From a bacterium (lineage in GTDB: Bacteria; SZUA-182; DTGQ01), in assembly GCA_040755755.1 (NCBI GenBank), contig JBFLZW010000011.1, positions 1 through 14,502 on the forward strand: 14,502 nucleotides of DNA, in the 5' to 3' direction. Numbering within the stretch: position 1 is the stretch's first letter; each line of letters opens with the position of its first letter. A model generated the notes under the pieces. It did no database searches. It worked only from the letters and a program-made list of their open reading frames with translations, and was not told the origin of the DNA. This document shows, in pieces, positions 1,333 to 14,476 of the stretch. A program made the position numbers and the translations under genes.

Positions 1333-3093
1333 TTATCTTCCCCGTTTCCGTGCCAAACCAAAGAAAGGAGCATGGGCTGCCCGGAAAAAGGGAGGATCAT
1401 GCTGCAAGATTGGAGCCACCAGGGGATGAGGGGAAAATACTTTTTCCAGAAAGTGCCGGGCTGATGGCCGGATATTTTCCCCCTGGGAGATAAACCCCTT
1501 ATACAGGCTGAATGAGCAGCCTGCCTCACCCTCATCCTCATCCTGATCATTACCCGGTTCATAAGCCTGACTGCCGTCATCCTGTTTCCGGCTGTCACCT
1601 TGTCCTTTATCATATTCCTCACAATCTGGCCCGGTGGCAGCCAGCTCATAGGTCCGGTCGATGAGAAACCTGCCGGGGTCCCTCTCCATAGGACTGCCAA
1701 TCGGCAGATTCATCAGGGCAGGATTGATGAAATGAACAACACTCTGGTTACGGGCGATAAAATCCAGGGTTTTCCGGCGGTCATGATCGGTTTCCGAGGG
1801 CAGGCCAAAGAGAAGATAGACATAATTCAGGATATTTTCCCGGGCCGACAGTTCCAGAATCCGCTCGGCCCGTTGCAGATCGATACCTTTTCGGCTCAGG
1901 GCAAGCAGCCGCTCCGATGCGCTTTCCAGGCCGAACTGCAGCATCCTGCATCCGGACGAGGAAAGATGTTTCATAAAGGCGGCATCTTCAAAGCAGGCTT
2001 CAAAGCGGACAAAGGAATAATAGGTGACGTTGCGCCCGGCAAAAAGATCAGCGATAATTTCCATGTTGGCCGGGGGCACTGCCGGGTCGGTGAAATGAAA
2101 AAGCGCTCCGGGGTGGTCCTCAAGGGTTTTTTGCAGGTTCCGGGCCAGATCCTTGCTCCCGGAAGTATGGGGGCTTCGCCCTGCATCCGGGCAAAAGGCA
2201 CACCTGTTCCAGTAGCAGCCAAGGCTGGTGGCATAGGGCAGGACAGGGACCGGCGAAAAATAGCCGGACAGATTGAAATCCCCGTAATCAGGGGCAGGAA
2301 GATGGGGCAGAAGGTCCGGGGTTTCGATGAAAGGGCTCTTCGCTGCTGACTGCCGCAGAACAGCAGGCCACATCGGGCCGGATTCTGCCGCCCTTCCCAG
2401 GACAATCCGGTCAAAGAGGCCGGAGAGCAGGGACAGGCTCCGGGGCCGGTCCCGGTAGCAGTTGATCAATCCGCCGCCGATAATTGCCGGTATTTTGGGA
2501 AAACGTGTCTTGAGCCTGGCCGCCACGAAGAGCGTGGGAAAGAGCTGGGAGAGATAGGTCAGGGAGAAGGCGATGAGGTCGGGCCGATACTGCTCGACCC
2601 TGGGAAAGAGCCGCTCAGAGCACCAGTCATCGAAGGGGGAGCAGTTGGTTTGCCGGGCAGAGCGCAGGTTATTTGCCATATCCACCGCTGCATAGGGAAG
2701 CAACTGAAAGTTATTCAGGGATACGGCCATGTCAGGATACGGGGCAAATACCAGCTTCAGGGCATCATTCAGATGATGGACGAAGGTGAGATAGCGGCTG
2801 AACGATCGATACCCTTCCTCCGACTTCAGCGCCGCCCTGGCCCGGTCCAGGTGAAGATATGCCCGCCTGGCCCGCGTCCATCGGGAGGATGGCGCTCCCA
2901 TCGTGCTGAAGGCAGCAAGGCACTCCAGTACATATTCGATGGATAAGACATAGTCCAGGAAATCGAGATTGGCGTCAAAGGCTAAAACCGTATGTTCCTG
3001 CTGATCCTGCTGCCACAGCGACTTGAGAAGGGCAAGCTGGCCGGGCGGTTCCGCAGGATGAAAAAAGGGAAGAGTAAGGAGAAGGATTCGCAT
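1333..3093 (-). CDS. B12-binding-type radical SAM protein
   Basis: 586 residues from ATG at 3093; the Shine-Dalgarno is weak, but no better upstream start exists and MRILLLTLPFF is a typical N-terminus for this family. Residues about 165-230 (PDLIAFSLTYLSQL, then IIGGGLIN) fit the Rossmann-type cobalamin-binding domain. Residues about 287-480 are the radical SAM barrel: GCYWNRCAFC gives cluster cysteines C293, C298 and C301, a CX4CX2C spacing instead of the usual CX3CX2C, followed by FGLES and FGLPSET motifs of the barrel. The C-terminus ends in FRAAHAPFF, which I associate with this subfamily. Residues about 491-525 form an acidic, low-complexity insert (GNDQDEDEGEAG). Members of the superfamily use S-adenosylmethionine to form a 5'-deoxyadenosyl radical, often for methyl transfer; the substrate here cannot be told. 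It is a lone gene with no obvious pathway partner. Confidence 0.85.
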   Translation of the reverse strand: MRILLLTLPFFHPAEPPGQLALLKSLWQQDQQEHTVLAFDANLDFLDYVLSIEYVLECLAAFSTMGAPSSRWTRARRAYLHLDRARAALKSEEGYRSFSRYLTFVHHLNDALKLVFAPYPDMAVSLNNFQLLPYAAVDMANNLRSARQTNCSPFDDWCSERLFPRVEQYRPDLIAFSLTYLSQLFPTLFVAARLKTRFPKIPAIIGGGLINCYRDRPRSLSLLSGLFDRIVLGRAAESGPMWPAVLRQSAAKSPFIETPDLLPHLPAPDYGDFNLSGYFSPVPVLPYATSLGCYWNRCAFCPDAGRSPHTSGSKDLARNLQKTLEDHPGALFHFTDPAVPPANMEIIADLFAGRNVTYYSFVRFEACFEDAAFMKHLSSSGCRMLQFGLESASERLLALSRKGIDLQRAERILELSARENILNYVYLLFGLPSETDHDRRKTLDFIARNQSVVHFINPALMNLPIGSPMERDPGRFLIDRTYELAATGPDCEEYDKGQGDSRKQDDGSQAYEPGNDQDEDEGEAGCSFSLYKGFISQGENIRPSARHFLEKVFSPHPLVAPILQHDPPFFRAAHAPFFGLARKRGR

Positions 3094-3265: not shown

Positions 3266-3574
3266 TCAGCTCCTTCCCTCTACTTTTCTCTTGATCAATG
3301 CAGGATTACGGCGCATTGGCAAGACCGCTACAACATAAGCAATGTCATCTACGATTTCGTAGTAAATGGCATAAGGAAATCGCTTGGCAAGCATTCGGTA
3401 GAGACCATGCTCTCTATTATGAATGCCTGCATAGATTACCAGGGATTCGATATCGGCAAGGAGACTATCCCAGAAGTAATCACCAACACCGGCTTCTCTT
3501 TGATCGTAAAAAGCTTTTCCGTCGTTCAGATCATCAGCGGCATCTTTCAGTATAACGATGTCTCTGACTTTCAT
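3266..3574 (-). CDS. ParE/RelE-type toxin of a type II toxin-antitoxin pair
   Basis: 102 residues. The pattern ILKDAADDLNDGKAFYDQ (helix hairpin), then GLYRMLAKRFPYAIYYEI and a YVVAVLPMRRNP strand region, is the compact fold of the ParE/RelE toxin superfamily (plasmid stabilisation system type). Its ATG at 3574 overlaps the antitoxin stop in an ATGA tetranucleotide, so the two are translationally coupled with the antitoxin first. Family members either inhibit DNA gyrase (ParE) or cleave mRNA on the ribosome (RelE); the sequence alone does not tell which. The length is normal and I see no sign of damage. Confidence 0.88.
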   Translation of the reverse strand: MKVRDIVILKDAADDLNDGKAFYDQREAGVGDYFWDSLLADIESLVIYAGIHNREHGLYRMLAKRFPYAIYYEIVDDIAYVVAVLPMRRNPALIKRKVEGRS

Positions 3575-3777
3575 GACTTACGGCTCGCCCTCAGCTTTTC
3601 AAGAGAAATGAATTCTGCTTTGCCGGTTTCAATCTTTATTTTCCTCTCTTCCAGGATATCCCTATGCCATTCAGGGGATTTTACTTCGGATTCTTCATCA
3701 ATAAGTGAATCCCAAAGCGCCTCTATGGCTTGAAGACGCTCAATTCTGCTCATTTTCTTGATTTCCAGTGCGTTCAT
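3571..3777 (-). CDS. Addiction-module antitoxin (Unstab_antitox/PF09720-like)
   Basis: 68 residues, from ATG at 3777. A longer frame reaches an ATG at 3825, but the internal start is preferred: AGAAGGGAA sits just upstream and the family begins with a short MNALEIKKMSRIERLQAIEALWDSL-type helix. The core LQAIEALWDSL, then SPEWHRDIL and a basic C-terminal tail, matches the small addiction-module antitoxins that pair with ParE/RelE toxins encoded immediately downstream. It should bind the toxin and probably represses its own promoter. The promoter region at about 3790-3860 contains the palindromic element at 3831-3858, so that element could affect expression. Confidence 0.88.
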   Translation of the reverse strand: MNALEIKKMSRIERLQAIEALWDSLIDEESEVKSPEWHRDILEERKIKIETGKAEFISLEKLRASRKS

Positions 3778-3782
3778 TTCGG

Positions 3783-3791
3783 TTCCCTTCT
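3783..3791 (-). promoter_or_regulatory. Ribosome binding site deciding the antitoxin start
   Basis: AGAAGGGAA on the minus strand, 5 nt before the ATG at 3777. The alternative start at 3825 has no comparable site. Confidence 0.7.
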
Positions 3792-3830
3792 CTAAACCAA
3801 ATCGCTCATATATGATGGCCATCACGCATT

Positions 3831-4147: not shown

Positions 4148-4711
4148 GTGGTCGTCTCGCTAAGTGCACGGCACGGGAATTACCCGGCCGGTTTGGTTCA
4201 ACGACGCCCCCCTCACCCTAACCCTCTCCCCCCAAAGGGCAATGTCATTAACTTAAGAGGTGGATTAAGGACAGGCTTTTGCTCCATGATGGAGCTATCG
4301 TCCAGCCGCCCTGTCTCGACGGCCATCTATTACCTTTTAAGTGCCGATGAATTTTCCGCCTTCCACAGCCTCAAGTCTGATGAAATGTGGCATTTTTACT
4401 CCGGTGCTGCCTTGGCGATCCACATCATTGATAATACGGGGAAGTACTCGCAGGTGAGGCTTGGCAGCGATTACGAGCGGGGAGAAGTATTTCAGGCAGT
4501 GGTGGAGGCAGGATGCTGGTTCGGGGCTGCGATTGACAGCGGGGGGGCGACAGGCAGCAGCAGAGCGGCAGCCAGCGGCACCGATTATACGTTGGTAGGC
4601 TGTACGGTAGCACCGGGTTTTGATTTCATCGACTTTCGTCTGGGGGACAGAAGGGAACTGATCGAGCGATATCCTGAGCATACGGCGATTATCGAAAAAC
4701 TCAGCCGGTGA
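4148..4711 (+). pseudogene. Cupin_5 (DUF985) protein lacking its N-terminal part
   Basis: From about residue 53 the frame reads SRPVSTAIYYLLSADEFSAF, then SDEMWHFYSG, GCWFGA and YTLVGCTVAPGFDFIDF, ending EHTAIIEKLSR: the body of the cupin_5/DUF985 family, a small RmlC-like beta-barrel of poorly known function. The family normally starts about 30 residues earlier with a PHPEGGYFRE-like motif, which I cannot find in any frame upstream. Instead the first 50 codons run through repeat DNA, including PHPNPLPPKG from a dispersed CCCTCACCCTAACCCTCTC-type repeat. A shorter product could start at the ATG pair at 4287/4290, but it has only a weak ribosome binding site. It is the only plus-strand gene. 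Most likely a 5'-truncated relic; expression of a short protein cannot be excluded. Confidence 0.75.
4206..4240. repeat. Fragment of dispersed CCCTCACCCTAACCCTCTC repeat
   Basis: The sequence CCCTCACCCTAACCCTCTCC followed by CCCCAAAGGGC translates as the PHPNPLPPKG peptide seen in many spurious or truncated proteins. Only one arm is present here. It sits where the missing N-terminus of the cupin gene should be. Confidence 0.6.
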
Positions 4712-4740: not shown

Positions 4741-4775
4741 GCAGGGGGCCGGGGTGTAAAGCCCCGGCTCCCTGC
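4741..4775 (-). terminator. Strong hairpin at the end of the cytochrome operon
   Basis: GCAGGGGGCCGGGG (4741-4754) pairs with CCCCGGCTCCCTGC (4762-4775) over 14 positions with a single G/T pair and a 7-nt loop. It lies 25 bp past the stop of the last cytochrome gene and 30 bp past the stop of the convergent cupin gene, a natural place for a bidirectional terminator. There is no T tract on either side, so it may block 3' exonucleases or act with Rho rather than terminate intrinsically. Confidence 0.55.
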
Positions 4776-4799: not shown

Positions 4800-6815
4800 T
4801 TACCAGTCATCACCGTTTCCATCGGCTGGATGATGGTATGTCTGGCCATGACACAGAACCGAGCACCAGTCATTACCCCTGCCGGGGGTATTGTCATAGC
4901 CTGCCGGATCGTCACATTTCCAGAACTTCGTCACCCACATATTTGAAAGGTCATTGTTAAATGCATACCGGGCGGGCATGCTGCTGTCCTGGTCTCCGAT
5001 CAATCTGGACAGCTTGCCCCCGTGAGGCACAAGGATGTGACACCTTATGCATTCAGGTCCATCGGGCCAGTTGGAGGCATGAGAGATATGGACATTGGTG
5101 CTGTCCTGGACCCCGTACTTATTCTTGGAAAAACTCACGGTGGAATGACAGTTCAGGCAGAACAGCCCGTTTCCGTCCGGATGTCCATCCTTGACCGATC
5201 GATGGTTAGGGACAGCGGTATTTGCGATCTTGCGCAAGGTGCCGGTGCCGGTGCCGTTTTCTGCCGCTGACAGGGTGGGCCAGGCCCTGTTTCTCCCTTT
5301 GAGCATCCATTTGACTGTCGATCCGTGCGGTCCCTGGGCCGATGTTCCGGAAATCTCGTTATTGCTGTGACAGTCAGAGCACATCATGGTCTTGCCGGTT
5401 GCGGAGAAGTAGTAGCCGACGGTTCCATCCGAAGGTACGCCGCCGACAGGGACTCCCGTTGGAGCCTGCCAGGCGATCCATTGGGCTACTTCAAACCAGG
5501 TGGGCTGACTTTGCACGACCTGGCCAATGGCATACTTTTGCGTACTCCCCGGACTGCTGCAAATAACGACATAATACCCCACCAATGACGGCAGGTATTG
5601 ATGGTAGTTCTTGACAGTGTCCGTGATTCTGTTCCCGGCTTTCGTGCCCTTGCCCGCATAGTATTCGATGGAGTAAACCACATCGTACTTGTCTGATCCG
5701 GACTGGAGCCCTGTCATACCCTGCCATGAAATGCTGAGACTGGTCGTGGTATTCGAATTGATTTTTCCAACCTGGTTGAAGGTGTATGATCCGGCTTTGC
5801 TCAAGGTCCCCACGCGGATTCCCCAATTTGCCCATTGGTTCGTCTGCCATCTCTTGCCATTGCCTGCATCGGGATCGATATTCAAAGTGAATTCGTAAGC
5901 ATAACCGGAAAGGCCGGAATCCCCAATGAGCAGGCTGGTAAATGGGGCTGGCAGCCGGTTGGAGCAACACTCATTTCCGGGGTCAGTATCAGGAAGTGCC
6001 TGAGCTGCCGGGTGATAGGAATTGTTCTTGGAATTGAACTCCAGTGCAGCATCTGTCCATGACTGAGTTCCCGATCCGCCCCAGGAAGAGAAACTGGTGT
6101 TATAATTGCTGTGACACTTGAAACAGATATGGTATTCCCTGGTTGCCACCGACAAGAGGGCGGGCCATGAGGATACTGTGCTCCAGTTGCTGCTTCCCCA
6201 TACTGCCGGCTCGATGCCGAAGGCACCCTTGAGAGGACCCGAAGCAGCTATTTCATTCGTGCCGGATGCAAGATGGAGCCCCGCATTACTGGCCAGCTCA
6301 TTATGCAATCCGCTGTCAGCGGCATGAGGGTTATGGCAGTCATTGCACTCCACGTGCTTATTGGCCGACAGGTAGGCCCTGGTTTCCTCTTTGGGCGAAT
6401 AGCGGTGAAGACCGCTGTAGCCGGTAACATTGTGCCGGTAGGTCTTGCCAAACACTGCCGGGATACTGGCAGGAGCACCTGACATGCCGCCAGCCTGCTG
6501 AGAGCCGCTGGTCGTATGACACTTCATGCAAAAGTCGGGGTCATCCAGGTCAGTAAACAGCATCCTCTGGTTTACCCCGCAAATACCGCCATCGAACGTA
6601 TCATGGCAGTGGGTGCAGTCTCCTGTCAGACACCCTGTGCCTTCCGGGCATTCTATATGACCGGCACGATTGACCCCAAACGCGGTGTCACCGTGAGAGG
6701 TATCAGGATAACCCGCCATCCCCGCCTGCGGGAAGGCGGGAATCCCTGCTACGAGCACTATGATTATAAAAACAGCGAGCCGCACATACCGGCCTTGAGA
6801 TTCTATGATCTGCAT
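4800..6815 (-). CDS. Exported octaheme-type cytochrome c, paralog A
   Basis: 671 residues, ATG at 6815 behind a GGGAAGG ribosome site. Signal peptide: basic ESQGRYVR then AVFIIIVLVAGIPAF, with cleavage likely near AGMA/GYP (residue 34). Heme motifs: CTHCH 67, CMKCH 96, CNDCH 157, CFKCH 231, CSDCH 479, CLNCH 553 and CIRCH 589, plus CX3CH (CSVLCH) at 651, so seven or eight hemes. Between hemes 4 and 5 lies a roughly 245-residue non-heme region, with two beta-rich repeats of the form W..NQW...VRV....VGKI.SNT (about 305-363) and ITDT...LVGYYVVI (about 395-447). A conserved Cys-Cys pair (283-284) precedes them. It should be matured in the periplasm and act there or outside the cell as an electron carrier; partners are unknown. 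It is the last gene of the operon and paralogous to the gene directly upstream. Confidence 0.88.
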   Translation of the reverse strand: MQIIESQGRYVRLAVFIIIVLVAGIPAFPQAGMAGYPDTSHGDTAFGVNRAGHIECPEGTGCLTGDCTHCHDTFDGGICGVNQRMLFTDLDDPDFCMKCHTTSGSQQAGGMSGAPASIPAVFGKTYRHNVTGYSGLHRYSPKEETRAYLSANKHVECNDCHNPHAADSGLHNELASNAGLHLASGTNEIAASGPLKGAFGIEPAVWGSSNWSTVSSWPALLSVATREYHICFKCHSNYNTSFSSWGGSGTQSWTDAALEFNSKNNSYHPAAQALPDTDPGNECCSNRLPAPFTSLLIGDSGLSGYAYEFTLNIDPDAGNGKRWQTNQWANWGIRVGTLSKAGSYTFNQVGKINSNTTTSLSISWQGMTGLQSGSDKYDVVYSIEYYAGKGTKAGNRITDTVKNYHQYLPSLVGYYVVICSSPGSTQKYAIGQVVQSQPTWFEVAQWIAWQAPTGVPVGGVPSDGTVGYYFSATGKTMMCSDCHSNNEISGTSAQGPHGSTVKWMLKGRNRAWPTLSAAENGTGTGTLRKIANTAVPNHRSVKDGHPDGNGLFCLNCHSTVSFSKNKYGVQDSTNVHISHASNWPDGPECIRCHILVPHGGKLSRLIGDQDSSMPARYAFNNDLSNMWVTKFWKCDDPAGYDNTPGRGNDWCSVLCHGQTYHHPADGNGDDW
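6250..6804. repeat. 555-bp identical tract, copy in cytochrome A
   Basis: Compared by eye, this stretch is identical base for base to 8314-8868 at a constant offset of 2064 bp. It covers codons 5 to about 189 of both paralogs. On the operon-downstream side identity drops abruptly at 6249/8313. On the start-codon side there are single differences at 6805 and 6812, then about 35 bp of near-identical leader. Confidence 0.85.
6712..6746. repeat. Palindrome inside the signal-peptide/mature junction of cytochrome A
   Basis: ATCCCCGCCT (6718-6727) and AGGCGGGAAT (6734-6743) pair at 9 of 10 positions around a GCGGGA loop. It encodes GIPAFPQAGMAG. The sequence resembles the dispersed GTCATTCCCGC hairpin family, one member of which is at 3831-3858. 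Confidence 0.6.
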
Positions 6816-6872
6816 CGCTTTACCTTCCCTTCCTTACCTGTGCTGGAAAGGTTCTCTTACCTAGAGGTTCCC

Positions 6873-8879
6873 TTACCAATCCTCACCATTTACCCCAGAT
6901 ACATGATTTGCTACTCCGTGACACAGAACCGAGCAAAAAAGATCACCCCCTCCGGGAGGGTCGTTATAGCCTGCGGGATCGTCACATTTGCTGAACTTTG
7001 TAATCCACATATTGGAAAGATCGTTGTTAAAGGCGTAGCGGCTCGGCATGGTGCTGCGGTCTCCAATCAATCTGGATAACTTGCCGCCATGGGGCACAAG
7101 GATGTGACACCTTACACATTCAGGCCCATCGGGCCAGCCAGCAGCATGAATAAGATGGATATTGGTGCCATCCTGGACCCCGTATTTATTCTTGGAAAAA
7201 CTCACCGTGGAGTGGCAGTTCAGGCAAAACAGGCCATTCCCATCCGGATTCCCGTCTTTTACGGATCTATGGTTAGGAGCAGCAGTGTTTCCGATCTTGC
7301 GTAACGTGCCTGTTCCTGTTCCGTTCTCTGAGGCTGACAGGGTAGGCCAGGCCCTGTTTCGTCCTTTCAGCATCCATTTGACTGTGGAGCCATGCGGCCC
7401 CTGGGCTGAAGTCCCGGAAATCTCGTTATTGCTGTGACAGTCGGAGCACATCAGGGTCTTGCCGGTTGCTGAGAAGTAGTAGCCGATTGTTCCGTCCGCA
7501 GGTACACCCCCAACAGGGACTCCCGTTGGAGCCTGCCAGGCAGTCCATTGCGCTACTTCAAACCATGTAGGCTGACTTTGCACGACCTGACCTATGGCAA
7601 TTTTTTGAGAGCTTCCCGGACTGCTGCATATAACGACCTTATAACCCACCAGTGACGGCAGATATTGATGAAAGTTCTTGGCAGTGTCCGTGATTCTGAT
7701 GCCGGCTTTGGTGCCCTTTCCTGCATAATATTCAATGGAATAAACCACATCGTACTTGTAGTTTATAAACGTAAGTCCCGTCATATCCTGCCATGAAATG
7801 GTGAGGCTGGTCGAAGTGTTTGAGACAATTTTCCCAACCTGATTATAGTACAGATTCCCGCCCGTAGTCAGCGTTCCCACTCTTACGCCCCAATTTGTCC
7901 ATTGGTTAGCTGTCCATGTCTTACCATTGCCCGCGGCAGGATCAATGGCAAGAGTGAAATCTCCAGCTTGAGCGGAAAGGCCGGAATCACCAATGAGAAG
8001 ACTCGTAAATGGGGCGGGCAGCCGGTCAGAACAGCACATGCTGGCAGGGTCCGTGTCAGGAAGAGCCTGAACGACAGGGTGATAGGATCCGTTACTGGGA
8101 TTGAACTCCAGGGCAACGTTTGTCCATGCCTGAGTCCCCGATCCTCCCCAGGAAGAGAAACTGGTATTGTAATCGCTGTGGCACTTGAAGCAAATCTGGT
8201 ATTCTCTGGTTGCTCCTGTTAATGTTACGGGCCATGACACTCCGCTCCAGTTGCTGCTTCCCCATACTGCCGGCTCGATGCCGAAGGCACCTTTGAGCGG
8301 GCCTGAACTGGCGATTTCATTCGTGCCGGATGCAAGATGGAGCCCCGCATTACTGGCCAGCTCATTATGCAATCCGCTGTCAGCGGCATGAGGGTTATGG
8401 CAGTCATTGCACTCCACGTGCTTATTGGCCGACAGGTAGGCCCTGGTTTCCTCTTTGGGCGAATAGCGGTGAAGACCGCTGTAGCCGGTAACATTGTGCC
8501 GGTAGGTCTTGCCAAACACTGCCGGGATACTGGCAGGAGCACCTGACATGCCGCCAGCCTGCTGAGAGCCGCTGGTCGTATGACACTTCATGCAAAAGTC
8601 GGGGTCATCCAGGTCAGTAAACAGCATCCTCTGGTTTACCCCGCAAATACCGCCATCGAACGTATCATGGCAGTGGGTGCAGTCTCCTGTCAGACACCCT
8701 GTGCCTTCCGGGCATTCTATATGACCGGCACGATTGACCCCAAACGCGGTGTCACCGTGAGAGGTATCAGGATAACCCGCCATCCCCGCCTGCGGGAAGG
8801 CGGGAATCCCTGCTACGAGCACTATGATTATAAAAACAGCGAGCCGCACATACCGGCCTTGAGATTCTGTGATCTTCAT
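6873..8879 (-). CDS. Exported octaheme-type cytochrome c, paralog B
   Basis: 668 residues from ATG at 8879, chosen because GGAAGG lies 7 nt upstream and the N-terminus (MKITESQGRYVRL) then matches paralog A. The frame stays open to 8978, but that would overlap the upstream beta-helix gene and add a non-signal extension. Signal peptide as in A. Heme motifs in order: CTHCH, CMKCH, CNDCH, CFKCH, then after the beta-rich region CSDCH, CLNCH and CVRCH, ending with CSVLCH (CX3CH). Extra cysteines around the first heme (CPEGTGC and GGICG) and the Cys-Cys pair are conserved. The two beta repeats are present but diverged from A (SGLSAQAGDFTLAIDPAAG versus SGLSGYAYEFTLNIDPDAG). The C-terminus differs mainly in a short linker. 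Role as for A: secreted multiheme electron carrier, inferred. It sits 37 bp after the beta-helix gene and 57 bp before A. Confidence 0.88.
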   Translation of the reverse strand: MKITESQGRYVRLAVFIIIVLVAGIPAFPQAGMAGYPDTSHGDTAFGVNRAGHIECPEGTGCLTGDCTHCHDTFDGGICGVNQRMLFTDLDDPDFCMKCHTTSGSQQAGGMSGAPASIPAVFGKTYRHNVTGYSGLHRYSPKEETRAYLSANKHVECNDCHNPHAADSGLHNELASNAGLHLASGTNEIASSGPLKGAFGIEPAVWGSSNWSGVSWPVTLTGATREYQICFKCHSDYNTSFSSWGGSGTQAWTNVALEFNPSNGSYHPVVQALPDTDPASMCCSDRLPAPFTSLLIGDSGLSAQAGDFTLAIDPAAGNGKTWTANQWTNWGVRVGTLTTGGNLYYNQVGKIVSNTSTSLTISWQDMTGLTFINYKYDVVYSIEYYAGKGTKAGIRITDTAKNFHQYLPSLVGYKVVICSSPGSSQKIAIGQVVQSQPTWFEVAQWTAWQAPTGVPVGGVPADGTIGYYFSATGKTLMCSDCHSNNEISGTSAQGPHGSTVKWMLKGRNRAWPTLSASENGTGTGTLRKIGNTAAPNHRSVKDGNPDGNGLFCLNCHSTVSFSKNKYGVQDGTNIHLIHAAGWPDGPECVRCHILVPHGGKLSRLIGDRSTMPSRYAFNNDLSNMWITKFSKCDDPAGYNDPPGGGDLFCSVLCHGVANHVSGVNGEDW
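8314..8868. repeat. 555-bp identical tract, copy in cytochrome B
   Basis: Partner of 6250-6804. The contrast with the rest of the genes (about 87% identity in a 60-base sample downstream) marks it as recently homogenised rather than simply conserved. Confidence 0.85.
8776..8810. repeat. Palindrome inside the signal-peptide/mature junction of cytochrome B
   Basis: Same palindrome as at 6712-6746, within the identical tract; arms at 8782-8791 and 8798-8807. Confidence 0.6.
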
Positions 8880-8886
8880 CGCTTTA

Positions 8887-8898
8887 CCTTCCTTCCTT
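8887..8898 (-). promoter_or_regulatory. Ribosome binding site deciding the start of cytochrome B
   Basis: AAGGAAGGAAGG on the minus strand ends 7 nt before the ATG at 8879. Paralog A has almost the same leader (AAGGAAGGGAAGG), differing by a small insertion. Confidence 0.75.
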
Positions 8899-8916
8899 AC
8901 CTGTGCTTGAAAAGTT

Positions 8917-9615
8917 TTATTCCTTCCAGTAGGTGTGAATATCTTTCCCGCTATTAGCGCGATTACCGAGGACAGCATTGTTCTGCACTGTTCCCTGTGA
9001 CTCGATGAGGGAAACCGCCCCGCCCTCTCCAGACAATGCCTGGTTTTCAGTGAAGTTATTGTTCACCAGGGTCGGGGTTGACCGGAAGACATACAGAGCC
9101 CCTCCTTCACCATAATCGGCCCTGTTCTGGTAAAAGTCATTGTTTTTGATAACCGGAGAGGACTTGAAACAGAAAATCGCTCCTCCCAGCCCCTTATCAG
9201 CAACATTGTTTTTGAAGATATTATCCTGAATTGCCGGATTGGATTGATAACAGGCAATGCCGCCACCCTCACCTGCATTTCCCCGAGCGTTTCCATGCTG
9301 GATAGTCAATCCCTGGATCCGGCCATTACTCCCGTTCTTCAGGATAATGCAGGGAGCCCTGTTTCCTCCATCGAGGATAGTCCTTTCCCGGTTTTTACCC
9401 TGGAGATTGATGGATTTCCCATCAATAACCAGATTTTCACGATATATGCCGGGGAAAACGGTAACCGTATCCCCATCCCGAGCCAGGGAAATTGCCTTCT
9501 GAATGGTAGGGCATTCTCTGGAAGGAACGGAAAAAGAGGCAGCTTCCAGCGAATACGAAGGCATGAAGAATAATACTATACTTCCCAGTACGATAATCCC
9601 TATGAATTTCTTCAT
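8917..9615 (-). CDS. Small secreted parallel beta-helix protein
   Basis: 232 residues, ATG at 9615 behind AAGGAGA. Signal peptide MKKFIGIIVLGSIVLFFMPS with cleavage near residue 26 (SLEAA). TIQKAISLARDGDTVTVFPG and YRENLVI (37-64) form the first rung of a pectin-lyase-like right-handed beta-helix. Residues 116-223 are four exact 27-residue rungs (116-142, 143-169, 170-196, 197-223), each with GG at the start, a small hydrophobic strand and a NN or DN turn followed by F or V. No catalytic residues of pectate lyases or pectinesterases are evident, so binding or structure is likelier than enzymatic activity. It is co-transcribed with three multiheme cytochromes, which suggests a cell-surface scaffold or attachment function; this is inference. 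It has the same opening rung as the gene at 1-1112. Confidence 0.85.
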   Translation of the reverse strand: MKKFIGIIVLGSIVLFFMPSYSLEAASFSVPSRECPTIQKAISLARDGDTVTVFPGIYRENLVIDGKSINLQGKNRERTILDGGNRAPCIILKNGSNGRIQGLTIQHGNARGNAGEGGGIACYQSNPAIQDNIFKNNVADKGLGGAIFCFKSSPVIKNNDFYQNRADYGEGGALYVFRSTPTLVNNNFTENQALSGEGGAVSLIESQGTVQNNAVLGNRANSGKDIHTYWKE

Positions 9616-9668
9616 CGGTAATTCTCCTTATTTCGCGATTATAATAAACTCTGCCAAGACTGCGAATA

Positions 9669-12320
9669 TCAGTTCTCTGTGGCCACGTCTACTTCCAGCA
9701 GTGTATTAACCTCGAGTGGTCCCATTCCCGTAAAGAGTTTGAGATATCTGCCCTGTTTGGGAGTAACGGCAGTGCCCGTTCCTGCCGGATCTGCCTGGGC
9801 CAGCCAATTGGCTTTCACCGCAGTGCCAAAGGCGGCTGGATCATCGCTGACGAAGATGTTCCACTGCCGGGTGGCCGAGAGGAGAAGGCGAATTTGCGTA
9901 ACCTGACAGCTTTGTCCCAAATCAAAAATTACCCAATGGTCGGCAAAGGGAACGTACATATTGCCCGTCTCCGGATGATCGTCAATCAGGCATTCGGGCA
10001 GCCAGAAAAGATATTCAGAATGAACTGCCTGGGGAGTTCTCCAGATAACGGGGGAAGAAACCCCGGTGGTAAAATCCCAGGCGGGCGGGGTCAGGCTATG
10101 GCCGCCAACATCCTGGATCGATACCGTTATGGTAATATGTTCCTGGTCGCTGAAATTGGTTGCGGGATTGACAGTTACCTGATAGCGGGAGGATGTTCCG
10201 GTGACTGAAACGATTCCGGTATCCTCATCCGTATAGGTTTGCGAATAGGAAAGATCGCCCTGCAGGGAAATGGAGAATGTGCTCCAGTCAAGAGCATCCT
10301 GGCCATTGGAGAGAAGCAGCAGGCTGAGGTTACTGTCTACAGCCACGCCTTCACTTCCCGGCTGCGGATTCAGCAACCGGATCGAAGGGGGAAGCACCGG
10401 TCTGGCCCAGGTGCCCGCAGGCTTGTCCAGTGCCTGATAGGTCCGGTCATATTTGATGGTTGACGGACCAGCGTGACAGGCAACACATACACCTGTGTCT
10501 TCCAAAGCTCCGCCTCCAACTCCTCCCAGCACCGGCATATCACCATAAGCGCTCTCTTCACCAAAGATGGTGGGAGTAAATCCATCCTGTTTATACCAGC
10601 GGAAGCTCAGGGCAGGCACCTTATCCTCGGTTCCCGGCGTACTGATCAATTCTCCGTGGCGGATCATCACCGGATTCGGGGCGCCATGCACATTGTGGCA
10701 GGCAGGGCAACTGAGGCGGGAATCGATAAGGGCATCACCGAATTTTACGGCATCGGCTACGACAATACCATTTGCCAGATCAGAGAGCTGGACATAGCCG
10801 GAGCTTCCCTCGATAAAGGAAAATGTTCCCAACAGCGTCCAGGTGTTCCCATTAATCTGTTGATTTACTGTTCCCGTATAGGTTCCACCGCTATACACGA
10901 TGGAATACTGAGCATTACTGGCATGCTCGGCGCTTGCCGGCCAGCGGGCGTAGACTTTGTATTCTCTGTTCTGGGGAAGGAGCGGGATCCAGGCAGCGGT
11001 GCTGGTGCCATCTCCCGCCGCATGCCACTGGTAATCAGTTCCATAGTATCCTCCAATCACTGTGGAGGAAGGCCAATCACCCACAAAAACGGCGTTGAGA
11101 TTATCCACAATGATTTCATCGGGAACCAGCCGGTAATCCCAGTCCGAATCCCAGGCCACCCGTCCGGAAGTGATATGGGCCCGATGCCGGTTGACCCCGT
11201 CATCCTGGAAATTAGTCATAAAGGGAGCGGTACTTCCCATAATACGGTCATAGTTGTGACAGGTAAAGCAGAGGGTGAATCGATTGGCACCCGAACCGCC
11301 CAGAGGACCGACCCCCAAAGGTATGGTCATGGAATATTTAAGCCGATATCCATTCTGGTAATTGTGAGGATCATCGGGATTAAATGGATCGGAGCCGTGA
11401 GCATACGTCCGGGCATCACCGTCGATATGGGCAGTGGTCACAGTATGACAGGCTGAGCAGGTGATCTTATGGCCGGTGATGTTGTAGCCATAGGTGGCAT
11501 TATCGCCCATAACATTGGGGGCGGATATTCCCTCACTGACTGAAATGCCATCGTCGTGGCATCCGGCACACCAGTTTTCCCGTCCGGATTGCAGGTCCTG
11601 CCCCTGCGGCTGTTGATACACTCCGCTCTGCCAGTTTGCTTTGGCTCCGATCACCGGGTCATCAACTCCATCATAGGCACCAGCCGGGCTATGACACCCG
11701 TCGCAAACATCCGTCTCTGAAAGATTGAAATGTCCATCTCCATTGCTGTCCGTCCCGGATTTAAAAAATGGATAATTGGCAGTATCGTGACAGGCAGCAC
11801 AATCAATACATGGCCCCCGCAAATCATCGCTGTCGTGTTCCGTATGCGTGGAATGGCTGATAAAAGAGCCTGCTCCCGGACTCGTTTGACCCGGTTCATA
11901 CTCGTATCCACTATCGTGGCCATGACACGATATACAGCCGGTTCCGGAACCGCCATTGTGGAAAAACTCTCCGCAATGGAAATGGCACGCGGAACAATCC
12001 TGACCGGTATAATGGCTGCCCCGCGGGGATGTGCCATCCGTTCGATAATAATTCGTCGAGGTATGACATACTTCACAGATACGGCTTCCACTCCCGTCAG
12101 CATAGTGATCAGGCTTAATCTGAAATACGACATTCTCTCCATTGATCGTTTCCGAAATGCCCGCCAGGTTTTGACTGGAACCGCTCAGATCATGACAAGC
12201 CGTACAATTGGTTTGGTAATGAAACGGAGCGGACCAGGCTACACCTCCGGTACCGAAGACAAGACATACGACAGCCAGACCCGCTGTCAATAGTCCCCAT
12301 CCAGTCTTTATGACATTCAT
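9669..12320 (-). CDS. Exported 11-heme cytochrome c with golvesin-like, Ig-like and discoidin-like domains
   Basis: 883 residues, ATG at 12320, Shine-Dalgarno GAGGAGA 8 nt upstream. Signal peptide residues 1-30 (LLTAGLAVVCLVFGTGG, cleavage near WSA). Eleven CxxCH motifs with first Cys at 39, 82, 109, 129, 174, 206, 251, 288, 351, 538 and 612. Between hemes 9 and 10, residues about 402-528 (EIIVDN, GYYGTDYQW, YKVYARWPA, NGNTWTLLGTF, VVADAVKF) match the golvesin C-terminal/Xly carbohydrate-binding-like domain. Residues about 645-752 look like a bacterial Ig-like domain (LNPQPGSEGVAVDSNLSL). Residues about 757-880 resemble an F5/8-type C (discoidin) beta-sandwich (WVIFDLGQSCQVTQIRL). This architecture suggests a cell-surface or extracellular electron carrier that also binds polysaccharide. 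It is the first gene of the operon and probably the dominant product. No lipobox is seen. Confidence 0.9.
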   Translation of the reverse strand: MNVIKTGWGLLTAGLAVVCLVFGTGGVAWSAPFHYQTNCTACHDLSGSSQNLAGISETINGENVVFQIKPDHYADGSGSRICEVCHTSTNYYRTDGTSPRGSHYTGQDCSACHFHCGEFFHNGGSGTGCISCHGHDSGYEYEPGQTSPGAGSFISHSTHTEHDSDDLRGPCIDCAACHDTANYPFFKSGTDSNGDGHFNLSETDVCDGCHSPAGAYDGVDDPVIGAKANWQSGVYQQPQGQDLQSGRENWCAGCHDDGISVSEGISAPNVMGDNATYGYNITGHKITCSACHTVTTAHIDGDARTYAHGSDPFNPDDPHNYQNGYRLKYSMTIPLGVGPLGGSGANRFTLCFTCHNYDRIMGSTAPFMTNFQDDGVNRHRAHITSGRVAWDSDWDYRLVPDEIIVDNLNAVFVGDWPSSTVIGGYYGTDYQWHAAGDGTSTAAWIPLLPQNREYKVYARWPASAEHASNAQYSIVYSGGTYTGTVNQQINGNTWTLLGTFSFIEGSSGYVQLSDLANGIVVADAVKFGDALIDSRLSCPACHNVHGAPNPVMIRHGELISTPGTEDKVPALSFRWYKQDGFTPTIFGEESAYGDMPVLGGVGGGALEDTGVCVACHAGPSTIKYDRTYQALDKPAGTWARPVLPPSIRLLNPQPGSEGVAVDSNLSLLLLSNGQDALDWSTFSISLQGDLSYSQTYTDEDTGIVSVTGTSSRYQVTVNPATNFSDQEHITITVSIQDVGGHSLTPPAWDFTTGVSSPVIWRTPQAVHSEYLFWLPECLIDDHPETGNMYVPFADHWVIFDLGQSCQVTQIRLLLSATRQWNIFVSDDPAAFGTAVKANWLAQADPAGTGTAVTPKQGRYLKLFTGMGPLEVNTLLEVDVATEN

Positions 12321-12999: not shown

Positions 13000-13022
13000 T
13001 CAGCCCTTGACATTTGACAAAT
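12993..13022. repeat. RAYT-associated end sequence (GGGGTCAGCCCTTGACATTTGACA)
   Basis: The plus strand reads GTGGGGTCAGCCCTTGACAT and then TTGACA, with a direct repeat TTGACA/TTGACA 7 bp apart. The stop codon of the transposase gene lies inside this sequence. I associate this kind of sequence with REP-associated transposase genes. No matching copy is visible on the other side of the gene in this window. Confidence 0.5.
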
Positions 13023-13998
13023 CAGACGAATAAAGCAAATGTGCTTTCATGGTTTCCACATTTTTTTTCAGGTCACTATTCTTTTCCATCTTTTGAATAA
13101 ATCTCTGACACACTTTAGTCACTGCTGAATAGCTCAGGTTGGTGAATATCTGTCCGATTTGCCTGTTCGAGAGGTTTGTATATCTTTTAGCCAAGTAAAC
13201 AGCCAGGTCCCTGTATTTTCCATTCTTGTTGAAGATGTCATCTTTTGAAGTATGCAAACAACTGCACATCTGATCAATAATGAATTCAATATCAAGGGAG
13301 GACAATCTGTTACTCAGTGCTCTACGGCAGGAGATATCGCATCTTTTGGCGATCTCCTTTCCTTGAAATTTCCGCAGGGTTTCCTCAATAAATTCTCCCC
13401 CTCCCAGGATCACTCCTCCATAGATATTCCTCAGAGGATTCTCTCCTTCTATCCCGATCGCATCCTCTACAAATGCCTTGTACCTGCCTGGGGCTTCCTG
13501 TTTATTTCTCGAAATCATTTCCCAGATAAGATCATGGCTAATAATATCTTCTGCATCTTTACATACATAAGCTCTATAGCTGCTAAAGGGATAATCTTCC
13601 GGTCTTTCCACCATCTTTGCCCTCACAGGATTCAGGTGTAGATAGCGGCTCAACTCCAGCAAATAGTTATCTCGCTCTACCAGCAAGGCTTTATATCTTC
13701 CCTGGAAGAGGTGACCGGTTCTTTTTCGCTTTGTATTGAAGTATGTGGTGTAAGAGCCATTAATATAATGCATGACCTTGCTCAGGTTGGCTTGTGCTGT
13801 CTCCATGATCAGATGATAGTGATTCGTCATAAGCACATAGCAGTGAAGAGTGCAGTTATATTTTTCCTGGGCTTCCTGTAAATACTCCTTGAATTTTTCA
13901 TAATCAAATCGTGACTGGTAGATCGTTCTCTGTTCATTGCCTCGAGCTGTTACATGATAAAAGGCACCTTCAAATTCAATTCGCAATGGTCTAGCCAT
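13000..13998 (-). CDS. REP-associated tyrosine transposase (RAYT, Y1_Tnp family)
   Basis: 332 residues, ATG at 13996-13998 with AGGAGA upstream. The N-terminus MARPLRIEFEGAFYHVTARG, the HUH motif in TNHYHLIM (H60, H62), GHLFQGRYKALLV and RYLHLNPVRA with the catalytic tyrosine at 119 are hallmarks of HUH single-strand nucleases of the RAYT group, which are thought to act on REP palindromes. The C-terminal part (about 232-305: DDIFNKNGKYRDLAVYLAKR, then SNRQIGQIF and SYSAVTKV) resembles the DnaA C-terminal DNA-binding domain, as in the long subgroup of these proteins. All catalytic residues are present, so the gene is probably intact. It is a single gene transcribed toward the operon's upstream region. 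RAYTs are usually single-copy domesticated genes rather than active transposons. Confidence 0.9.
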   Translation of the reverse strand: MARPLRIEFEGAFYHVTARGNEQRTIYQSRFDYEKFKEYLQEAQEKYNCTLHCYVLMTNHYHLIMETAQANLSKVMHYINGSYTTYFNTKRKRTGHLFQGRYKALLVERDNYLLELSRYLHLNPVRAKMVERPEDYPFSSYRAYVCKDAEDIISHDLIWEMISRNKQEAPGRYKAFVEDAIGIEGENPLRNIYGGVILGGGEFIEETLRKFQGKEIAKRCDISCRRALSNRLSSLDIEFIIDQMCSCLHTSKDDIFNKNGKYRDLAVYLAKRYTNLSNRQIGQIFTNLSYSAVTKVCQRFIQKMEKNSDLKKNVETMKAHLLYSSDLSNVKG

Positions 13999-14239: not shown

Positions 14240-14265
14240 TCTCATATATCAGTCACCATACCTTC

Positions 14266-14349
<84 letters not shown>

Positions 14350-14442
14350 TTCTCTTTTAAAACGGTATCTAATATGAATGGCACTTACATAAGCCAAGCT
14401 TATAATATAGAGAGGACACAAAGCACACAGGGAAAAAAATAT

Positions 14443-14476
14443 CTCCCGCAGAGACGCAGAGACGCAGAGAACAACC
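14443..14476. repeat. Second copy of the GCAGAGACGCAGAG dispersed repeat (single arm)
   Basis: CTCCCGCAGAGACGCAGAGA followed by CGCAGAGAACAACC closely matches the left arm at 1207-1240. The inverse arm is not seen before the window ends. Confidence 0.7.

Follow-up and report, generated by a model that had tools for sequence, protein, structure and literature searches.

The window analysed here, 14,502 bp, is an entire contig (C11, with contig ends at both window ends) of the 5.26 Mb draft genome G000 (88 contigs, 97.6% complete) of an uncultured cytochrome-rich bacterium. It carries a cluster of four minus-strand genes in the order cytA, beta-helix gene, cytB and cytC (Table 1), with gaps of 53, 37 and 57 bp by ORF analysis, as an earlier note on this DNA had read them. 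For cytB the start at MKITES (ATG) was used; the longest possible frame would reach 8978 and run into the beta-helix gene. All four proteins begin, as also claimed earlier, with a signal peptide; it is of the Sec type, and no lipobox cysteine is present in these peptides (both judged by eye). The cluster encodes 25 CxxCH and 2 CX3CH heme sites (the latter CSVLCH, one each in cytB and cytC), and the resulting 27 sites correspond to the upper figure of the 25 to 27 first counted. By their several CxxCH motifs (11, 7+1 and 7+1 sites) and export signals seen by eye, the three large proteins are multiheme c-type cytochromes, and Paired_CXXCH_1 (Pfam) is above cut-off in cytB and cytC.

The hairpin that the earlier note placed after the last stop is present, and none of 200 shuffles folds as well. 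For want of a U-run it was rejected as a plain intrinsic terminator. With cytC on one side and a convergent gene on the other, it may serve as a terminator common to both. The close spacing of the four genes on one strand and the strong hairpin behind them support a joint module, and we infer that the genes are co-transcribed. A promoter-like site in the gap between cytA and the beta-helix gene, found in a consensus scan that returned 16 sites where 9.6 were expected, is a possible internal promoter and would allow separate transcription. Rfam and tRNA scans were empty.

Elsewhere on the contig lies a dispersed repeat, CTCTGCGTCTCTGCGG, which may be a REP-like element. The genome contains it 72 times in exact form, against 0 matches for the reversed sequence used as control; the copies frequently form inverted pairs spaced by about 50 nt and are frequently found near contig ends. 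The same contig encodes a REP-associated tyrosine transposase with a DnaA-like C-terminal helix-turn-helix domain, which may act on this repeat. It also carries an overlapping pair of a ParE-type toxin and a putative addiction-module antitoxin, a short tandem array, and a B12-binding radical SAM protein whose closest matches, well below cut-offs, are RiPP maturation methyltransferases.

Table 1. Positions, strands and evidence for the features of the contig.
Feature	Position	Strand	Evidence
Exported protein, cut by the contig edge	3-1112	-	
Dispersed repeat CTCTGCGTCTCTGCGG	1210-1284 and 14439-14476		Copy count
B12-binding radical SAM protein	1333-3093	-	
ParE-type toxin and putative antitoxin, overlapping pair	3266-3574 and 3571-3825	-	
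Cupin_5 (DUF985) gene, convergent with cytC	4148-4711	+	Pfam; hairpin between the two stops
Hairpin between cytC and Cupin_5 gene	4741-4775	-	RNA fold dG -33.9, z -3.9
cytC, tandem copy of cytB, 671 aa, 7 CxxCH + 1 CX3CH	4800..6815	-	87% protein identity to cytB
Tract of cytC, 555 nt, identical to that of cytB	6250..6804	-	Sequence comparison
cytB, exported cytochrome, 668 aa, 7 CxxCH + 1 CX3CH	6873..8879	-	ORF, motif count
Tract of cytB, 555 nt, exactly identical to cytC (signal peptide, hemes 1-3)	8314..8868	-	Sequence comparison
Heme-free insert, ~205 aa, between hemes 4 and 5	cytB 7455..8069; cytC 5388-6002	-	Missing from cytB-core relatives
Small exported right-handed beta-helix protein, 232 aa	8917..9615	-	Pfam, AlphaFold2
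Promoter-like site, cytA/beta-helix gap, 10/12 match	9638..9666	-	Consensus scan only
cytA, exported 11-heme cytochrome, 883 aa	9669..12320	-	ORF, 11 CxxCH, Pfam
Discoidin-like (F5/F8 type C) domain of cytA, residues 793-862, weak	9735..9944	-	Pfam PF22633
Big_5 Ig-like domain of cytA, residues 644-752	10065..10391	-	Pfam PF13205, E 1.1e-6, above cut-off
Golvesin_C domain of cytA, between hemes 9 and 10	10740..11114	-	Pfam PF25275, E 1.3e-34
REP-associated tyrosine transposase	13000-13998	-	NCBIfam above cut-off
Short tandem array, 7-nt unit like CTTCTGA	14251-14367		

The golvesin-like and Ig-like domains that had been proposed for cytA both pass Pfam cut-offs, as Golvesin_C (119.6 bits against a curated cut-off of 31.6, and 123.8 bits in the genome search) and Big_5. 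The discoidin-like domain proposed along with them is there as a match (E 0.0021), but its 19.1 bits stay below the cut-off of 27.8; a paralogue of cytA on contig C10, with the same domain order, has such a match at the equivalent place (E 1.2e-4), likewise below cut-off. Golvesin_C is common to cytA and the Paenibacillus xanthan lyase 6f2p, which residues 402-527 match in a PDB search (E 1.3e-20), but in cytA it is located between heme sites of a cytochrome and is not accompanied by a lyase domain. Plasmid relatives of cytA, among them xanthan lyases and a PL8-type lyase, share the golvesin part only. Within the source genome, all five Golvesin_C matches are inside multiheme cytochromes of 7 to 15 hemes. 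The golvesin-bearing part of cytA has matches in 28 of 386 sampled genomes; among the loci opened, which cover part of the matches outside the cytA family, golvesin is joined to hemes solely in G000, in G001 of the same genus and in G003 (cytA family), and the golvesin loci opened in other genomes encode heme-free proteins, with no heme fusion. Nine of the 11 heme-linked golvesins cluster together in a domain tree with weak support (82/87), a grouping that would be consistent with one or few gains. Among the papers searched, none dealt with golvesin or discoidin combined with multiheme cytochromes.

The cytB and cytC proteins are 87% identical overall, but this identity is unevenly spread. In the 555-nt tract dS is 0.008 (over codons 5-189), whereas the remaining 1,437 nt have a dS of 0.87 and a dN of 0.119 (dN/dS 0.14). 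Judging from these rates, the two genes arose by an old tandem duplication, and purifying selection acts on both; the duplication is absent from the earlier reading of the sequence. The contrast in dS indicates that the 5' end was homogenised, either through gene conversion or during assembly. Assembly from short reads can merge repeats that are nearly identical, and an error of this sort (one repeat edge placed twice, or two near-identical copies merged) fits the sharp edge of the identity and the draft state of the genome. We regard it as a serious possibility but the less probable one: the contig continues on either side of both copies with differing flanks, and tandem copies commonly undergo gene conversion. 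This matter concerns the duplication alone and is compatible with every functional reading below.

The heme-free insert of both proteins has no homologue by Pfam, PHROG or comparison with the sampled genomes; a phage origin, which the sequence of the cytB insert had suggested, was rejected (no PHROG match, and a search of 50,697 phage records gave nothing better than E 0.7). No plasmid relatives of cytB were found, and its AlphaFold model, built from three sequences, is unusable (pLDDT 25.6). Outside the class, twelve further genomes encode relatives of the cytB core, most of which do without the insert. Several of these genes are clustered with others for multiheme cytochromes, NHL propellers and exported proteins; Pfam revealed no porin in these clusters. 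In the related genome G003 (CSMAG_2299), a protein encoded at one edge of contig C156 joins a cytA-like part (residues 9-257) and a cytB-like part (424-770) in one chain. It lacks the insert, and its matches to cytA and cytB reach beyond the heme motifs.

The source genome has a second pair of cytA and beta-helix genes (C10:57374-60300), 61% and 59% identical to the first, in the same order and tightly spaced. Since cytB and cytC are missing there, what is conserved as a unit is the pair of cytA and beta-helix gene, to which cytB and cytC are not obligate partners. The earlier note would have been contradicted by homologous cytochromes regularly lacking a nearby beta-helix gene, and this is largely what we found for the cytA homologues, but not for the closest paralogue, on C10, which has kept its own. 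No beta-helix gene was seen within the stretch read around the homologues on contigs C6, C18 (two), C42 and C54, or around those in G001 and G003. The pair is absent from these two genomes, where the listed beta-helix matches are on contigs other than those of the listed cytA matches. The full four-gene set turned up nowhere else in the genomes sampled, in keeping with the earlier note, which knew of no described system with exactly this set but held its novelty to be unproven. As far as the searched collections and papers show, the combination of golvesin, hemes and a paired beta-helix gene is undescribed, the parts themselves being known. The same genome also encodes giant cytochromes with 26, 21 and 24 CxxCH motifs (L037 6279-16145 and L036 6203-13888), each of the two clusters holding a large protein with invasin-like Big_1 and fibronectin type III domains.

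Such a distribution could have arisen by chance, a duplicated cytochrome having landed behind an unrelated pair of cytA and beta-helix genes, without cooperation among the four. The restriction of the full set to the window, the C10 pair standing alone and the many cytA homologues without a beta-helix neighbour all point this way, as does the C-terminus of the beta-helix protein, about 25-30 residues shorter than that of its C10 paralogue, as if cut by the arrival of cytB and cytC. We nevertheless consider this unlikely, as the pair has stayed together at two loci that have diverged to about 60% identity, the four genes share one strand with short gaps, and cytA-like and cytB-like parts are fused in G003.

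The beta-helix protein had been described as having four rungs, which is too low a figure: it does contain four 27-residue repeats, whose turns read GEGG/GLGG, yet about seven coils are predicted (best AlphaFold2 model, mean pLDDT 86.6, built from two sequences, with four of the five models poor). Chlam_PMP and DUF1565 (Pfam) are above cut-off. The protein shares parallel beta-helix repeats with NosD, DUF1565 and Chlamydia PMP-repeat proteins, but differs from NosD and PMP proteins in that there are no nos genes and no autotransporter domain; a NosD or N2O-reductase role was rejected (NCBIfam TIGR04247, 48.3 bits against a cut-off of 300). Beta-helix proteins are widespread in the class, with matches in all eight relatives, and the exported protein at the start of the contig begins a pectinesterase-like beta-helix at its cut end. 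In a Foldseek search the model weakly resembles RbmB (best E 2.5e-3) and pectin methylesterases. A periplasmic or surface module for polysaccharide breakdown, with the beta-helix protein as a lyase-like enzyme and cytA binding the substrate and supplying or draining electrons for a redox step, would agree with this resemblance and with the frequency of golvesin in polysaccharide lyases, but it is improbable, as no polysaccharide lyase or CAZy-type family is above cut-off in Pfam or NCBIfam, the protein is smaller than the lyases it resembles, the E values are weak, and the cluster contains neither a sugar-uptake gene nor a redox enzyme.

Among known electron-transfer systems, OetABI of syntrophic sulfate reducers and Geobacter is a porin-cytochrome conduit (PMC10553843). 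OetABI-type conduits, which are assigned to extracellular electron transfer, have in common with the window multiheme cytochromes in clusters (PMC10553843). The clusters of the cytB-core relatives resemble them in gene make-up. The window, however, has no beta-barrel porin and no lipoprotein cytochrome, and has golvesin, Ig-like and beta-helix parts instead; since porin and lipoprotein define these conduits, we did not file the cluster among them. No porin was detected among the Pfam-scanned ORFs of the 14.5-kb contig, and one farther away in the genome is possible. The filament cytochromes OmcS, OmcE and OmcZ show no sequence likeness to the cluster, the best cytochrome match in the PDB being NrfH (E 0.25). 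Anaerobic methanotrophic archaea are said to have large cytochromes with surface-layer or Ig-like domains, which, like cytA, would combine hemes and non-heme surface domains in one protein; cytA differs from these in having golvesin and discoidin-like domains rather than an S-layer domain, in being bacterial and in its partner beta-helix gene.

Taken together, we favour a polysaccharide-binding redox module, with the beta-helix protein as a polysaccharide- or surface-binding partner, a reading drawn from sequence to which we give an even chance of being right. Polysaccharide binding is suggested because Golvesin_C is otherwise found in polysaccharide-active proteins, and the beta-helix fold with its weak likeness to polysaccharide lyases counts on the same side; a redox role is suggested because the cytB-core relatives lie in large multiheme clusters and the cytA-like/cytB-like fusion exists. 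The adhering electron-transfer module of the earlier note thus stands as a redox module with polysaccharide-binding parts, but its binding of minerals has no support, and nothing found here points to the beta-helix protein as the scaffold that the note proposed. The golvesin and probable discoidin-like domains of cytA would bind polysaccharide (own matrix, sheath or substrate), holding the heme chain there. The beta-helix protein, adjoining cytA and duplicated with it, would be the binding partner, and the tandem 8-heme cytochromes cytB and cytC would pass electrons to or from cytA, presumably by protein-protein contact. Signal peptides take proteins only across the inner membrane. The module may occupy the extracellular site proposed earlier, but no porin or lipobox supports a reach beyond that membrane; as neither a porin nor a lipoprotein signal nor any known secretion tag was seen in or near the cluster, a periplasmic location is also possible.

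One might speculate further, as a long shot, that golvesin cytochromes with a dedicated beta-helix protein form a conductive layer, a lineage-specific wiring of the polysaccharide matrix that would be independent of porin conduits. The golvesin-heme fusion can be used as a marker to find such proteins. If cytA does bind polysaccharide, an electron-carrying protein would be tied directly, at the molecular level, to an extracellular matrix in an uncultured lineage.
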